Assembly (NCBI GenBank): GCA_938045295.1
Contig: CALINO010000044.1
Coordinates: 1 to 37,703 of the forward strand
Origin: an uncultured Arenicella sp.
GTDB taxonomy: Bacteria > Pseudomonadota > Gammaproteobacteria > Arenicellales > Arenicellaceae
Length of the DNA: 37,703 nt
Direction: 5' to 3'
The first letter of the stretch is position 1; each line of letters begins with the position of its first letter. Below are positions 27,706 through 33,331 of this stretch, piece after piece. Made by a program: the position numbers and the translations under genes. The notes beneath the pieces were generated by a model that was given only the letters and a program-made list of their open reading frames with translations, had not been told where the DNA came from and did no database searches.

Positions 27706-29157
27706 ATGACTCGCGAAGTTAGTCAGCAATATCTGGTTAATTGGAATGAACGGCAAGCGCTTGCCGAAAAAATGATCCCCTTGCTTGGTTCGCTGTACCG
27801 CGGCTCAAGCGTGGTGGTTCGTGTTTTCGGACAAAAGATTGCGAACTCATCCACTATTGAAATTATTAAAGCGCATTTGCATGGGCGTTTAATTGTTGGT
27901 CAGCCGTTGGACATGGCGAAAAGTTTTAAAATGCTGCAGTTAATTGAGCAGATGAACTTGCGCCCTTGTCGTATTGATTTGGGGAAATTGTGTCACGAAT
28001 ACCTGACTCAAGAGTCTGATGAAGATATGCAGGCTTTTCTGGATCGTCGAATAGAAAAGTTATTAGGCGAGCGCACTAAAGCTGACAATGAATCGCACGA
28101 CGTGGTGTTGTACGGTTTTGGGCGAATTGGTCGCTTGTTGGCAAGGTTGTTGGTTGATCGCACCGGCACAGGCGCGAAATTGCGTCTTCGAGGCGTGGTT
28201 GTTCGCTCTAAAGGCGATGTGCAGCAAGACTTGGAAAAGCGTGCTGAATTATTGCGCCGTGATTCGGTTCATGGTGAGTTCGACGGTTCCATCTTGGTAG
28301 ATGCCAAGGCTCAAGCCATCATTGCTAATGGCAACTTCATTCAGTTTATCTATGCCAACAGCCCGAGCGACATTGACTACACCAAGTACGGTATCAAGGA
28401 TGCCTTGGTGGTGGATAACACGGGTATTTGGAAAGACGAGAAGGGCTTAGGTCAGCATACTTCGTGCAATGGTGTGGCCAAAGCCTTGTTGACCGCTCCG
28501 GCAAAAGGCGACATCAAAAACATTGTGTATGGCATTAATGATGATTTGATTAGCGCAAGCGACACCATTCTGTGCGCAGCCTCATGCACCACTAACGCCA
28601 TTGTGCCGCCTCTGCAAGTTATAAACGAGAAATACGGCATTGAGAGTGGGCACGTGGAGACCATTCACTCCTACACCAATGATCAAAACTTAATTGATAA
28701 TTACCACAGTGCCGAGCGCCGTGGCCGAAGCGCGCCATTGAATATGGTGATTACGTCTACCGGTGCTGCCAAAGCGGTGGCAAAAGTGCTGCCAGAGCTG
28801 AGTGGCATTTTAACCGGTAATGCCATTCGGGTGCCGACTCCCAATGTGTCAATGGCGGTGATGAACCTTAATTTAAATACTGAGGTCACTGCTGAGGAGT
28901 TGAATGACACTTTTCGGCAAATTTCATATCACTCACCACTGCAAGAGCAAATTGGTTTTACTTATTCTACTGAGGTGGTGTCGTCCGATTTGGTTGGCTC
29001 TACGCATTCCGGCGTTGTGGATGGCGGTGCGACTATTGCTGATGGTAAGCGGGTTGTTTTGTACGTGTGGTATGACAACGAAGCCGGTTATTCAAATCAA
29101 GTTGTTCGCGTCATGCAGAAAGTGGTGGGTCTATCACTTGATTGCTTGGCCGTATAA
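27706..29157 (+). CDS. gap: glyceraldehyde-3-phosphate dehydrogenase with long N-terminal extension
   Basis: 483 residues, against about 335 for classical GAPDH. Residues 1-130 are an extra, mostly helical domain (EKMIPLLGSLYRGSSVVVR). The NAD-binding motif is YGFGRIGR at about 136-143 and the active-site cysteine is in CAASCTTNAIVPP (Cys294). IHSYTNDQNLID, RRGRSAPLNMVITSTGAAKAV and WYDNEAGYSNQVVRVM are conserved. Long GAPDHs of this type occur in Pseudomonas and marine gammaproteobacteria beside or instead of the classical one. It oxidises glyceraldehyde-3-phosphate in glycolysis or the reverse in gluconeogenesis. Single-gene unit with its own promoter and terminator. Confidence 0.95.
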   Translation: MTREVSQQYLVNWNERQALAEKMIPLLGSLYRGSSVVVRVFGQKIANSSTIEIIKAHLHGRLIVGQPLDMAKSFKMLQLIEQMNLRPCRIDLGKLCHEYLTQESDEDMQAFLDRRIEKLLGERTKADNESHDVVLYGFGRIGRLLARLLVDRTGTGAKLRLRGVVVRSKGDVQQDLEKRAELLRRDSVHGEFDGSILVDAKAQAIIANGNFIQFIYANSPSDIDYTKYGIKDALVVDNTGIWKDEKGLGQHTSCNGVAKALLTAPAKGDIKNIVYGINDDLISASDTILCAASCTTNAIVPPLQVINEKYGIESGHVETIHSYTNDQNLIDNYHSAERRGRSAPLNMVITSTGAAKAVAKVLPELSGILTGNAIRVPTPNVSMAVMNLNLNTEVTAEELNDTFRQISYHSPLQEQIGFTYSTEVVSSDLVGSTHSGVVDGGATIADGKRVVLYVWYDNEAGYSNQVVRVMQKVVGLSLDCLAV

Positions 29158-29176
29158 ATTGCGTATTTGTTGAATA

Positions 29177-29204
29177 AAAAAAGGGGGCTGTAGCCCCCTT
29201 TTTT
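29177..29204. terminator. bidirectional terminator after gap and the roadblock cluster
   Basis: A6-GGGGGCT and AGCCCCC-T6 pair with a very small loop. It lies between the convergent gap and roadblock genes. Confidence 0.92.
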
Positions 29205-29212
29205 GTGTCGTG

Positions 29213-29611
29213 CTACTCGGTAAATAGTGAGATCGTTTGCGCCAGTTTTTTAGTGTGGTAACGAGCGGTGGCTAAAGACATTTTAATGCGCGCGGTAACA
29301 GTAAGAACGCATTCGAGTTCCAAATAGCGGGTACGCACAAACAAGGTGTTGCCGGCGTTGCTTTCCACAATCGTAACATTGAATTCGTCAAGCATTAGCA
29401 TGTTAGCGCATGAGTCACTCAGTGCTGATAATGTGCTGCTCATGGCCGCCAATTTGTCAGCCTCCATGTTTAAATCTTGTGCTACAAACGATTTAATGGT
29501 GAACCCGTCTGTGGTGCATAAACTAACCACTGAAATTTCCCGATTGTTCTCACAAAGCGTTTTTATCTCACTTAACAATTCGGGCTTTATCGCTATCTTG
29601 GATTTTGGCAT
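29213..29611 (-). CDS. Roadblock/LC7-domain protein (second of cluster)
   Basis: 132 residues. A short basic N-terminus (MPKSKIAIKPELLSEIK) is followed by a roadblock/LC7 fold: VVSLCTTDGFTIKSF, then a long helix (MEADKLAAMSSTLSALSDSCA), NVTIVESNAGNTLFVRT and a closing helix. Such proteins are partners or GTPase-activating factors of MglA-like small GTPases (MglB in Myxococcus, CvnB in conservons). ATG 29611 is the start because the frame upstream to 29713 lies inside the GTPase gene. It is 19 bases after the GTPase stop, same strand, so co-transcribed; it ends at the bidirectional terminator shared with gap. Confidence 0.8.
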   Translation of the reverse strand: MPKSKIAIKPELLSEIKTLCENNREISVVSLCTTDGFTIKSFVAQDLNMEADKLAAMSSTLSALSDSCANMLMLDEFNVTIVESNAGNTLFVRTRYLELECVLTVTARIKMSLATARYHTKKLAQTISLFTE

Positions 29612-29630
29612 GTTTCTTTTTGGGGGTAAT

Positions 29631-30158
29631 TTATCGATTAATGGCATTGAAAATGTGCAGCACTGAGATTGCCGAACTTCTGTCGCGAGCGTCAATTTGA
29701 ATGATGGGTGCAATGATGTTTCGTTGTTCCAGCATGGTTTGAATTTCTTGATTTAGAACAACTAATTCGTCATGCGAGGCTGTTTCGCAATGGGTTATTG
29801 CAGCAACGCAACTCACTTTTTTATCGGCAGGTGCAAAAAAGGACAACAATTTGTCAAAATTTTGGTAATCAGGTGTTTCACCGCATTTTATGAGAATTAA
29901 CAGTCCCCAAAGAGAGTTATTCACTATCTCCCATAGGAAAGAATAACGCTCTTGTCCGGGTACGCCGTATAAGCCCAGAGCCGTATCTTCAGATAAGTTT
30001 AGGCGACCATAATCTATGCCCACGGTAGTTTCAGTCTTGCCAATGTCGATGCTTGATTTGGCTTCGGTTTCAATTGGGCTGATTTCGCTTAAGGTTCGTA
30101 TTAAGCAAGTTTTTCCAGAGCCTACTTCGCCGGCAATTGCTAGTTTTTTATAATCCAC
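29631..30158 (-). CDS. small Ras/MglA-like GTPase (COG2229 type)
   Basis: 175 residues. The P-loop is [14 protein letters not shown] (residues 8-20), the switch-I/G2 motif [10 protein letters not shown] (44-53) is the hallmark of the COG2229 GTPases, and G3 is YGVPGQERY (64-72). The usual G4 motif (NKxD) is replaced by ITHCE (121-125), so guanine specificity is uncertain. It starts at GTG 30158, overlapping the BLUF gene by 11 bases: translational coupling and probably a fixed ratio. In actinobacterial conservons the same GTPase type is encoded with a roadblock protein, as it is here. Cytoplasmic molecular switch by inference; the target is unknown. Confidence 0.85.
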
Positions 30159-30891
30159 GTTGCTTTAAACCTAAAAAGTTTTTTAGTTTTGAGTAAAAAT
30201 TGCCTGACTTTTCGGTTGTGCTTACCGGTATCACTTTCGTTTTTGGTTGTTCAGCACTTTTCAGGATGTGGAGTTTATCAAGACTGTACAGCAATTTGTT
30301 TAATTGTTGTTGTGTTCCAAAATCACCACTATTTACTAATTCGTCATAGTGGTGAGGACTATTTATTAAGCGAGCACACAGTTCAATAATGATGGGCGTT
30401 TGTTTGATAATCGTAAAATCGGGCCAAGTAATTAAACTTAACGATTTTCCATGGTATGAGCCTGAGAAGTCACTCAGTGTACTTTTTTTTGTGTAAAAAA
30501 TATTAAATAGTTGCTTTTGCTGCTCGTTTAAAAACCCTTTGCCTAACAGTAGCTGTTCAGCTAAAAGGTGAAACTCCGGAACTCGTGCAACGGAGCCGGT
30601 TAACCTCATGCTCCAATTTGAAAAAAATCGCTGAGAAGTAGGGGTGTTGAGGATAACTTTAATGTCAGTGTGTCTATTGTCAGAGCGTACAGTCGAAAAA
30701 AGTTCATCCACTGCCTGAGTGTCGCCTTCCAGTACTTGTATATAGTGCCCCTCTCGATATGACAATAGGCCTGTGATATTGCGGCTCGCATTTTTCTTTC
30801 GAGCGTACCGAAAAATTTTTGACAACTCTGCGGGTATTGAAGCGCCATTTTTGTTAGCCGTAGCCTTACTAATGTAAATAATGCATTTCAT
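30148..30891 (-). CDS. BLUF-domain blue-light photoreceptor with C-terminal effector region
   Basis: 247 residues. Residues 1-100 are a BLUF (blue light using FAD) domain. Every key flavin-site position is present when aligned with AppA and PixD/Slr1694: Tyr6, Asn34, Gln52 (YIQVLEG), Trp93 and Met95 (FSNWSM), plus NITGLLSY and DNRH. So FAD binding and the light-driven hydrogen-bond switch are likely. Residues 101-247 have no recognised enzyme domain; the helical segment about 165-210 ([20 protein letters not shown]) could be a winged-helix or protein-binding module. It overlaps the GTPase gene by 11 bases. Shine-Dalgarno-like AAGGAA lies somewhat far upstream. The likely role is to pass a light signal to the GTPase/roadblock partners. 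Confidence 0.9.
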
Positions 30892-30938
30892 ACTGATATA
30901 AGCTTTCCTTCTATAAATGCTTTTTGATGAACAGCCTT

Positions 30939-30958
30939 ATTAATGGTTGGATTAATGG
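30939..30958 (-). repeat. 8-base direct repeat upstream of the BLUF gene
   Basis: ATTAATGG-TTGG-ATTAATGG: two identical 8-base copies spaced by 4 bases (12-base period), 48 to 67 bases upstream of the BLUF ATG. Could be a regulator site; tentative. Confidence 0.4.
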
Positions 30959-31014
30959 CTTGGTTGCCCAGTTTGCGACAGTTATTTGAGTCGTGAGGGC
31001 GCTGCTATGTATGG

Positions 31015-31050
31015 TATTCGAGAAACGCTTAGGGCAACGCTTCTCGAATA
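31015..31050 (-). other. inverted repeat between first roadblock gene and BLUF gene
   Basis: TATTCGAGAA and TTCTCGAATA are perfect 10-base arms around a 16-base centre that carries ACGCTT twice as a direct repeat. It lies 10 bases after the first roadblock stop. It has no T-tract on either strand, so it looks more like an RNA-processing or stability hairpin, or a protein site, than an intrinsic terminator. It may set different levels for the two parts of the cluster. Confidence 0.5.
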
Positions 31051-31060
31051 CGCAGCATTT

Positions 31061-31420
31061 TTAAACTTCTAAATCGTTCTCAATGCTTTGTACTTTACGG
31101 CGAGCCAGTGCCAGGTTTGCTTTGTCTTTATCTAGTACCAGGTAAATGAATAAGCCTTCGTGTTTAGCGGCCGGCCTAATAATATGCAATTGTGTGTTGA
31201 GCGTAATTAGAATGTCGTTAATTTCGCCTTTAATACCCAGCGACTTCATTGTGTTCATTTTTGCTTTCACCACTTCTGAGTTTCCAGCTGCTGCTAACTC
31301 TAGATCAACGCCAGAACCTGAAGCACCTAAAGACATTCCTGTTGTGTAGTCAACAATGCTTGCGCCCATTGCGCCATCAATATCCAATAAGTCTTTCAAA
31401 CTTGCATTTATGTTTGCCAC
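31061..31420 (-). CDS. Roadblock/LC7-domain protein (first of cluster)
   Basis: 119 residues, single roadblock/LC7 domain: SLKDLLDIDGAMGASIVDY (N-terminal helix and strand), GVDLELAAAGNSEVVKAKM (central helix), INDILITLNTQLHIIRP and LFIYLVLDKDKANLALARR (strands and helix). Similar to MglB and to conservon roadblock proteins. The start is GTG 31420 with a GGGGG ribosome site about seven bases upstream. It is the first gene of the minus-strand cluster but separated from the BLUF gene by 169 bases with a hairpin, so it may have separate expression. Likely dimeric partner of the small GTPase. Confidence 0.85.
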   Translation of the reverse strand: MANINASLKDLLDIDGAMGASIVDYTTGMSLGASGSGVDLELAAAGNSEVVKAKMNTMKSLGIKGEINDILITLNTQLHIIRPAAKHEGLFIYLVLDKDKANLALARRKVQSIENDLEV

Positions 31421-31735
31421 GATATACCCCCAGGGTAAATATTAGTTAAGGTTGTTTAAAAAGAACGAGTTGCTGCTTTTTGAACCGCTCGATAAATGTT
31501 GCGTGGTCAATAATAACGATAGATGCTTTTTTGTCTAGCTCTTGTTGGCCTGTGTGGAGGTTATTTGTGTGATAATTAGCACAAATTGAATTTTCTGTTC
31601 AAATTTTGTTTGGTTAGCAGACACTCGTCAGTAATTGATGGCTTCTTGGTGTGCAATTTTTTTGCTCCTAAAAACACAAACCAGTACACTACGCGCGGTA
31701 AAGCTAATGTAATCGCAATAAGAGTTTCCCCAATC
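31421..31735. other. 315-base AT-rich region between roadblock gene and ybiT
   Basis: No firm gene. On the minus strand it holds a 53-codon frame starting with a good ribosome site (31737-31576, listed separately) and, overlapping it in another frame, a 52-codon open frame without ATG/GTG/TTG start ending at 31446, whose C-terminal part (VIIDHATFIERFKKQQLVLF) looks coding. The two might be a broken single gene. No strong promoter was recognised on either strand. Confidence 0.5.
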
Positions 31736-31737
31736 AT
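31576..31737 (-). CDS. possible small membrane protein (or 5' part of a broken gene)
   Basis: 53 residues, [20 protein letters not shown] and following: one hydrophobic segment (about 5-24) then a basic tail ([10 protein letters not shown]). GAGGT sits seven bases before the ATG, better than the ribosome site of the divergent ybiT, with which it overlaps head-to-head by 2 bases in the sequence CATG. No family recognised; could also be chance. Its frame stops inside a second open frame that continues to 31446, so a frameshifted longer gene upstream of the roadblock gene is an alternative. Confidence 0.3.
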
Positions 31738-33331
31738 GATTTCTACCTCAAACATCACCATGCAGTTTGGCGATAAGCCGCTGTTTGAAAATATTTCTGT
31801 TAACTTTGGTGACGGCAATCGTTACGGCCTAATCGGCGCTAATGGCAGTGGTAAGTCGACATTTATGAAAATTCTTCAAGGCGAGCTAGAACCTACGGCT
31901 GGCAGTGTGAGTGTGACGCCGAATGAGCGAATAGGTAAATTGAATCAAGATCAGTTTGCTTATGAAGAACACTCGGTCATTGATACCGTTATTATGGGCT
32001 ATAAAGAGTTGTGGGATGTTAAGTCGGAGCGCGACCGCATATACGGCTTGCCGGAAATGTCTGAAGAAGAGGGCATGAAAGTGGGTGAACTCGAAATGGA
32101 ATTTGCTGAGATGGATGGCTACACCGCAGAGTCGCGTGCGGGTGAGCTGTTAATGTCGGTGGGCATACCCATTGAACAGCATTTTGGCCCCATGAGCGCC
32201 GTGGCGCCCGGTTGGAAGTTGCGAGTATTGCTGGCTCAAGCGTTGTTTTCAGACCCGGATATTTTGCTGCTTGATGAGCCAACCAACAACTTGGACATTC
32301 ATACCATTCGTTGGTTAGAAAAAGTGCTGCAAGAGCGGCGCAGTACCATGATCATTATTTCGCATGACCGCCACTTTTTAAATTCCGTTTGCACGCACAT
32401 GGCTGACTTGGATTACGGCGACATTAAGCTGTTCCCAGGTAATTACGACGAATACATGACCGCTGCTGAAATGGCGCGCGAAAGGCTGCATGCTGAAAAT
32501 GCTAAGAAAAAGGCACAAATTGCGGAATTGCAAACCTTCGTGAGCCGCTTCTCAGCAAACGCTTCAAAAGCCAAGCAAGCAACGTCGCGGCAGAAGCAGT
32601 TAGACAAAATTAAGTTGGATGAAGTAAAGCCATCGAGTCGTGTTAACCCCTTTATTCGCTTTAAGCAAGACAAAAAGCTGTACCGCAATGCGGTGGAAGT
32701 TGAAAACTTGAGCATGGCTTACGATGAGGCACTGTACAGTAACGAAACCTACAACATTGAAGTGGGTGACCGAGTGGCTATTATTGGCCAAAATGGCGCG
32801 GGTAAAACTACGATGTTACGAAACCTGTTAGGCGAAGTAAGCCCAACTTCCGGTGCGGTTAAATGGTCTGAAAATGCCGAGATAAGCTACTACGCGCAAG
32901 ATCATGAAAGCGATTTTGAAGAGGATTTAACGGTTTACGATTGGATGTACCAATGGCGTAAAGACGAGGAAGATGAGCAGTTTGTGCGCGGTGTTTTGGG
33001 GCAAATGTTGTTTTCTAAAGACGACATTAAAAAGTCGGTGAAGGTGCTTTCGGGTGGTGAAAAAGGGCGCATGCTGTTTGGTAAAACCATGATGCAGCGG
33101 CCAAATGTGATCATAATGGATGAGCCTACCAATCACCTTGATATGGAATCCATTGAGTCATTAAACTTGGCTTTAGCAAATTATGAAGGTACATTAGTTT
33201 TTGTCAGTCACGACCGTGAGTTTGTAAGCAGTTTGGCAACGAAGGTGTTTGAAATTACACCGCAAAGAGTTGAACAATTTGCCGGCACGTACGACGAGTA
33301 TCTAAAATATAAAGACGCGCAAGCTGCCTAA
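31736..33331 (+). CDS. ybiT: ABC-F family ATPase YbiT
   Basis: 531 residues (E. coli YbiT 530), two ATP-binding cassettes and no membrane part. Walker A motifs are GANGSGKST (34-42) and GQNGAGKTT; Walker B regions are [12 protein letters not shown] and [12 protein letters not shown]; the second signature is [10 protein letters not shown], while the first cassette has the YbiT-like [14 protein letters not shown]. The linker between is rich in Lys/Ala/Gln ([20 protein letters not shown]). ABC-F proteins act on ribosomes; YbiT is one of the four E. coli paralogues, proposed to relieve ribosome stalling. The ATG 31736 ([12 protein letters not shown]) matches the E. coli N-terminus, so the longer frame back to 31586 is not used. 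No clear terminator before the hydrolase gene. Confidence 0.95.

Follow-up and report, generated by a model that had tools for sequence, protein, structure and literature searches.

Examination of the stretch of DNA analysed here revealed a compact module of four genes on its minus strand, predicted to encode a blue-light receptor of the BLUF type, a Ras-like GTPase of the MglA family and two roadblock proteins. The stretch (hereafter the window) is 37,703 nucleotides long and is the whole of contig C44 (CALINO010000044.1) in the 3.0 Mb, 92-contig genome of an uncultured Arenicella sp. of the Gammaproteobacteria. A sequence-only reading of the same letters had proposed four minus-strand genes in the order RobA-BLUF-GTPase-RobB, with an overlap of 11 bases between the BLUF and GTPase genes; arrangement and overlap were both confirmed from the coordinates. 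In the direction of transcription, the genes and the parts of the BLUF protein are the following:

31061-31420, minus strand: RobA, a predicted roadblock-fold protein of 119 amino acids with a GTG start, identified from its structural model and fold matches in the Protein Data Bank (PDB)
30148-30891, minus strand: BLUF sensor protein, 247 amino acids with an ATG start, made up of a BLUF domain, a C-terminal domain (C-domain) and a basic amphipathic tail
30607-30891, minus strand: BLUF domain (residues 1-95; Pfam E 8.8e-27), with Y6, N34, Q52, W93 and M95
30250-30444, minus strand: C-domain (residues ~150-214), motif L.L..WPDF....P..ELCA.L, winged-helix-like by topology and common to Group 3 companion proteins
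30175-30198, minus strand: C-terminal basic helix of the BLUF protein (residues 232-239, FYSKLKNF), from the structural model
29631-30158, minus strand: putative Ras-like (MglA-family) GTPase, 175 amino acids with a GTG start, sharing 11 bases with the BLUF gene
29213-29611, minus strand: RobB, a CvnB/MglB-like roadblock protein by its profile, 132 amino acids with an ATG start at 29611 and an invariant D35-G36 pair

A longer frame of 166 amino acids with a TTG start, listed for RobB, was rejected because homologues align instead with the 132-residue protein that begins at the ATG.

The BLUF domain was recognised by Pfam with 93.5 bits against a cut-off of 25, and the best fold matches of the AlphaFold2 (AF2) model of the protein were PixD/Slr1694 and other BLUF structures. 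RobA had no match in a Pfam scan, and its sequence gave a single marginal match in the PDB (7yh1, E 0.0095); its AF2 model (predicted local distance difference test, pLDDT, 93.7) had roadblock/MglB chains as best fold matches (3kye, template modelling score 0.83-0.84), and by this model RobA is a roadblock-fold protein. RobB fell under the cut-off of the Pfam family Robl_LC7 (17.2 bits for 23), and its family profile retrieved cvnB5 at 8.3e-14, further roadblock proteins and MglB at about 1e-3, so that on profile evidence it is a CvnB/MglB-like roadblock protein. The pair of roadblock proteins proposed in the sequence-only reading was therefore supported, RobA by its model and RobB by its family profile.

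For the GTPase, the best Pfam match was the GPN-type family ATP_bind_1 (33.1 bits, cut-off 27) and the score against Ras was just under the cut-off (21.3 for 21.6 bits), while the family profile matched Rab/Ras structures. The window protein carries TTVG in G2, THCE in G4, DAR in G5 and a G3 context of YGVPGQ. All nine module GTPases share GVPGQ in G3; G5 of the module GTPases reads DAR, DPR or DNR, and their motifs further include Thr-Thr in G2 and a G4 without Lys. The description of this protein as MglA-like stood as far as the family and, in part, motifs of the Group 2-5 type are concerned, and failed for the motifs of Myxococcus MglA (Group 1). The module resembles the Group 1 MglA/MglB systems of Myxococcus and Thermus, the group for which a link to polarity is known, in combining a Ras-like GTPase with roadblock partners; membership of that group was rejected because TVPGQ and the intrinsic Arg finger next to the G2 Thr are absent, YGVPGQ and Thr-Thr standing in their place.

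Co-occurrence of the genes in related genomes had been set beforehand as a test of the sequence-only reading, and a conserved unit was found in eight of the 18 congeneric genomes. The GTPase query detected its gene in 8 of these 18; among the 91 other genomes of the order, two gave weak matches, at 33% and 26% identity. RobA, RobB and a strong GTPase match (over 200 bits) were present together in the same eight genomes and all absent from the other ten (Fisher p 2.3e-5, with no correction for phylogeny or incomplete genomes; at completeness values of 78-99%, some absences could be gaps), and on this shared pattern of presence and absence the chance adjacency of four genes was rejected. Gene order and strand were kept in all nine GTPase-bearing copies from the eight genomes (the window, G001b, G004, G011, G013, G014, G016, G017a and G017b). 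No syntenic flanking gene was common to any two copies at E 1e-15 over the ~5.6-9 kb compared on each side (29 and 6 kb for the window), the only flank matches being two pairs, of 42% and 30% identity, whose positions do not correspond. Between any two of the four proteins, distances were correlated (r 0.61-0.86 and Mantel p 0.0002-0.017 over the six pairs), with RobA the most conserved (72-84% identity to the window) and the BLUF protein the least (33-48%). Median ratios of nonsynonymous to synonymous substitution rates were 0.08-0.18; since they were mostly saturated (8, 4, 2 and 4 usable pairs of 36 for RobA, BLUF, GTPase and RobB), we rely on conservation instead. In the window genome, the RobA, RobB and strong GTPase profile matches are confined to this module, and weaker GTPase matches (27-40 bits) occur in six congeneric genomes, including one of 37 bits in the window genome. 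Each of the nine strong GTPase matches of the genus adjoins a BLUF-type C-domain match, and the BLUF protein is the sole candidate input encoded with RobA, the GTPase and RobB of the window. These comparisons confirm the four predicted genes as a real, conserved and lineage-specific unit.

Two other arrangements of these genes were seen in the genome G001. A set of RobA, BLUF and RobB genes without a GTPase gene (G001a; L015 5614-7486), whose BLUF protein has Gly at the position of Gln52, lies in tandem directly upstream of the complete module G001b. An orphan RobA with 67% identity to that of the window (L083 6834-7226, G001:C1:761869) has no module gene adjoining.

The part of the BLUF protein that follows the photoreceptor domain is also conserved. 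Within residues ~100-247, the positions invariant in all ten modules include W156-P157-D158-F159, P166, E170, C172 and A173, and F232, K235 and F239 of the C-terminal basic helix are likewise invariant. In the AF2 model (mean pLDDT 78.7, and 83-90 over residues 151-210), the C-domain consists of a strand, three helices and a strand, a winged-helix-like topology, followed by a short C-terminal helix, and its placement relative to the BLUF domain is uncertain (predicted template modelling score, pTM, 0.56). No Pfam or NCBIfam family matched the C-domain over cut-off. Modules outside the genus carry another open reading frame (ORF) in the place of the BLUF gene, and a profile of 11 such companion proteins (245-417 amino acids), built without BLUF proteins, found the C-termini of nine module BLUF proteins at full-sequence E values of 1.7e-7 to 0.0019 and that of the window protein at 8.3e-4, in searches within small ORF sets. 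Alignment of the BLUF and companion C-domains by hhalign gave 96.2% (E 2.3e-9 over 97 columns), against 0.1-1.8% for controls with RobA, RobB and the GTPase; with 34 companion C-domains, from which sequences shorter than 80 amino acids and duplicates were left out, the value was 96.9%. At the level of sequence profiles, these results show that the C-domain and the C-terminal part of Group 3 MglA companion proteins are homologous. The sequence-only reading had attributed the coupling of BLUF and GTPase to the overlap of their genes; the overlap stands, and the putative physical link is instead provided by the C-domain.

Group 3 systems combine, in the accessible text of PMC4316618 (Wuichet & Sogaard-Andersen 2014), a homologue of MglA, one or two of MglB and a conserved companion protein whose N-terminus is receiver-like and whose C-terminus is winged-helix-like (by Phyre2), and occur almost only in beta- and gamma-proteobacteria. 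Their GTPases have Thr in place of the G2 Arg, GTPGQ in G3, no Lys in G4 and DAR in G5. In the same text, the characterised members of the MglA family belong to other groups and the companion protein is called unknown, and among the open-licence PubMed Central (PMC) matches listed we found no functional study of a Group 3 system. The window module resembles these systems in its host group, in its MglA-family GTPase with one or two roadblock proteins and in the winged-helix-like C-terminus of the protein encoded next to the GTPase; in its GTPase, too, Thr replaces the G2 Arg finger, G4 is free of Lys and G5 reads D-x-R. It differs in its G3 motif (GVPGQ and not GTPGQ), in the separate clan that its GTPases form on a long branch, and in having a BLUF domain in place of the N-terminal receiver-like domain. 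The receiver-like reading is that of PMC4316618; none of the 10 companion proteins that we scanned had a Pfam receiver domain.

The module also shares features with the actinobacterial conservons (AGPS; CvnA-D, Mfp), namely a CvnB-like roadblock protein and an MglA-family GTPase. In conservons the gene for a small helical protein, CvnC (DUF742), stands directly before the GTPase gene, as the BLUF gene does here, and overlaps it in six of seven records. In contrast to the conservons, the window module has two roadblock proteins and a sensor in which BLUF is fused to the C-domain; membership was rejected since no CvnA histidine kinase is encoded within or adjoining it. According to the accessible text of PMC13343842, CvnB/MfpD acts as a GTPase-activating protein (GAP) and CvnC/MfpC is likely a guanine nucleotide exchange factor.

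Among BLUF receptors with fused outputs, bPAC/OaPAC, BlrP1 and AppA have a cyclase, an EAL domain or an antirepressor as output, and the window protein resembles them in using BLUF as the input to a downstream module; it differs from them in that its partner is the C-domain of a GTPase system. A BLUF input to a downstream module is also seen in the PixD-PixE pair, in the accessible text of PMC9090330. The sequence-only reading knew of no described switch made of BLUF, roadblock and GTPase proteins, and this agrees with the matches listed in open-licence PMC, a set that leaves subscription papers mostly outside.

Searches across the class scored at most 10-13 first-look candidates per genome, and the resulting counts are lower bounds. 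Homologues of RobA were found in at least 16 of 369 class genomes, four of them of this genus; among 19 regions around RobA homologues outside the genus, a GTPase gene lay near RobA in 13 and not in six. The C-domain profile matched in at least 89 of the 369 genomes (75 of 273 genera); of the loci fetched, 22 of the 26 from other genera, and 25 of 30 overall, had a GTPase gene within 1.5 kb. None of these 26 loci encoded a BLUF N-terminus. BLUF domains occur in at least 49 of the same 369 genomes, and comparison of the lists by eye revealed none fused to or directly beside a C-domain in the 365 genomes of the class sample that lie outside the genus; the two matches closest to each other are separately encoded about 4.5 kb apart (G230:C13). 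Within the class sample, the BLUF form looks restricted to this genus. A scan of named genomes with the GTPase as the only query gave at least one locus.

Several of the Group 3 modules found across the class (L164 5222-8796, L159, L161, L162 and L167-L169) carry two extra genes, one before the companion gene, with a weak TPR match in L164, and one for a protein of ~215 amino acids between the GTPase and RobB, with a weak roadblock match in L164; in the other modules both were recognised by eye. In Neisseria gonorrhoeae (L116 3882-6551), Group 3-type companion and GTPase genes are broken into several frames; a RobB-like frame accompanies them, and the stretch follows, on its downstream side, a frame resembling the C-terminus of FimV by eye.

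C-domains were also found away from the modules. A separate C-domain gene without BLUF is present in all 18 congeneric genomes (frame of 442-496 amino acids), and in all five of those examined (L152 6134-7459, L153-L156) the protein of 441-485 amino acids is encoded between genes named by eye as lapB and dapB. No GTPase gene stood beside it in these five genomes, which indicates that a C-domain need not have a GTPase encoded nearby. Four genes in which BLUF and the C-domain are fused lie away from GTPases (G000:C8, G013:C35, G016:C33 and G010:C272). Three such orphans (G000:C8, which is L023 6338-7887; L084 7295-8618; L158 5786-7106) adjoin a similar phosphoribosyltransferase-like gene by eye, and the fourth (L157) has other neighbours.

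Alignment to BlrB and bPAC placed Y6, N34, Q52, W93 and M95 in the window BLUF domain; we take their roles in the flavin site to be those assigned in AppA, PixD and bPAC. The five key residues counted in the sequence-only reading were thus all recovered in the window protein. Its further suggestion that the BLUF protein is a light sensor agrees with the residues kept in the window; across the genus, not every module BLUF looks photoactive. Y6, N34 and Q52 are kept in eight of the ten module BLUF proteins, the window's included; Met95 is replaced in three (by F, L and L) and Trp93 in one. The two proteins without Gln52 (G001a and G017b) cluster in the BLUF-domain tree (97/90), and each shares its genome with one Q-containing module. 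In this tree, from which domains of 70 amino acids or less were left out, the module BLUF domains cluster, the best tree needs three changes and many forks are weak; a single origin of the module BLUF domains is neither shown nor excluded by it. In G017, a free-standing, divergent BLUF gene with the Tyr, Asn, Gln and Met motifs (L020 11414-12031) adjoins the module whose BLUF protein has no Gln52.

With modest confidence, we read the module as a Group 3-like system of MglA-family GTPase and roadblock proteins, with a BLUF domain instead of the receiver-like one; light, acting through the C-domain, would set the nucleotide loading of the GTPase. What is new here is the BLUF input, whereas the parent system has been described before. 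We infer that the BLUF domain binds flavin and responds to blue light, which would alter the hydrogen-bond network around the flavin and so reposition the C-domain. The C-domain would contact the product of the overlapping gene that follows, the GTPase, and alter how it is loaded with GTP, perhaps through nucleotide exchange, the likely role of CvnC. RobB would supply the GAP or scaffold side, with RobA perhaps as a heteromeric partner, and the complex may be recruited to the membrane by the basic tail. Once loaded with GTP, the GTPase would act on a target, possibly in surface motility or another polar process.

A number of observations weigh against this scheme. Every one of the 50 PDB fold matches listed for the BLUF protein model was a BLUF protein, with none for the C-domain, so that the winged-helix reading rests on topology together with the 2014 Phyre2 result for Group 3. 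The module GTPases form their own clan on a long branch, outside 32 sampled Group 3-type GTPases (97/93), in a tree from which matches shorter than 140 amino acids and duplicates were left out and in which long-branch effects are possible; for this reason we call the system Group 3-like, a variant and not a simple member. The tenth module copy, G001a, lacks the GTPase. PilT-family genes are present in all 18 congeneric genomes, with or without the module, and are uninformative on the output. The exchange step is drawn from the C-domains of companion proteins, which weakly resemble CvnC/DUF742; the BLUF C-domains alone do not display this likeness. For this comparison, 14 actinobacterial regions gave 11 DUF742 sequences after three repeats were left out, and two Deinococcus regions had no annotated DUF742. 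The 34 non-BLUF companion C-domains aligned to these 11 sequences over the helices and the C-terminal helix at 58% (hhalign score 29.7; the highest of 100 column shuffles reached 13.3); mixed or companion sets of smaller size gave 22-24%, the ten BLUF C-domains alone 0.9%, and no Pfam DUF742 match was listed for 24 C-domain members. The likeness could be a generic winged-helix similarity. A more specific version, in which the sensor is a light-gated exchange factor, a fusion of BLUF with a CvnC-type domain borne by a four-gene cassette at different places in the genus, and in which genomes with two cassettes hold a light-responsive and a light-blind pair, is accordingly put forward as a tentative possibility.

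Among the alternatives, light-controlled transcription carries some weight, and we judge it unlikely. The C-domain would then be a DNA-binding winged helix tuned by the GTPase/roadblock set, in keeping with the topology of the AF2 model, with scattered HTH matches in Pfam among relatives, all weak and under cut-off, and with the transcriptional output that the describers of Group 3 proposed (accessible text of PMC4316618), a proposal that also counts against the scheme preferred here. The composition of the domain in 24 members speaks otherwise: the third helix is not basic (Lys plus Arg 11.9%, Asp plus Glu 13.5%), the winged helix-turn-helix region is near neutral (10.6% and 9.6%), and the conserved positions are mostly hydrophobic or belong to the WPDF motif. 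Since the third helix is not basic and the C-terminal tail is (23% and 3%), a GTPase-facing, possibly membrane-tethered C-domain is preferred to a DNA-binding one. We think it rather improbable that the BLUF domain has lost its role as a photoswitch here and serves as a flavin or redox sensor, or as a structural dimerisation module that holds the C-domain. Gly in place of Gln52 in two of the ten module proteins, which is a further point against light gating, would fit such a loss, as would the replacements of Met95 and Trp93 and the clustering of the two Q-less proteins. Retention of the Tyr, Asn and Gln in the other eight, the window's among them, does not, and the pairing of one Q-containing with one Q-less copy in both two-module genomes fits specialisation rather than loss. 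That the BLUF gene merely travels beside the GTPase and roadblock genes, as a neighbour without function, we consider very improbable: the four BLUF-C-domain genes away from GTPases would agree with it, whereas the gene holds the same place in all nine GTPase-bearing modules in different surroundings, stands beside every strong GTPase match of the genus and encodes a homologue of the Group 3 companion C-terminus.

Candidate regulatory features around the genes are the following:

31510-31537, minus strand: weak sigma-70-like promoter candidate TAGACA-16-TATTAT upstream of RobA, from a promoter scan
31001-31056, minus strand: strong hairpin directly 3' of the RobA stop codon (fold -30.6 kcal/mol), without a T-run
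29177-29204, minus strand: intrinsic terminator-like hairpin closing the operon, with a GC stem and A and T runs (fold of 29165-29212, -19.1 kcal/mol)

The promoter scan showed no enrichment over shuffles (4 found, 5.2 expected), and the closing hairpin was not among the matches of a consensus scan. The hairpin after RobA is probably a leaky terminator or a stem that stabilises the mRNA. Strong stem-loops (30995-31062 in the window) recur in the RobA-BLUF gaps of other modules with differing sequence, in at least four of them by eye (G004, G011, G014 and G017a), which suggests that the level of RobA may differ from that of the rest of the operon. Plus-strand genes named by eye as GAPDH (27706-29157) and ABC-F ATPase (31586-33331) flank the module.

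Taken from sequence comparison, the cassette appears to be a BLUF-input variant of a known GTPase system, Group 3, that is uncharacterised as far as we found in open-licence PMC. With the Group 3 input replaced by a light-switchable domain, the coupling between companion protein, GTPase and roadblock proteins would become addressable with a lamp and could be probed by light. If the reading is true, the module would be a naturally occurring optogenetic device that controls a bacterial Ras-like GTPase; should the C-domain be a relative of CvnC, two separate bacterial G-protein systems would be tied to one mechanism.

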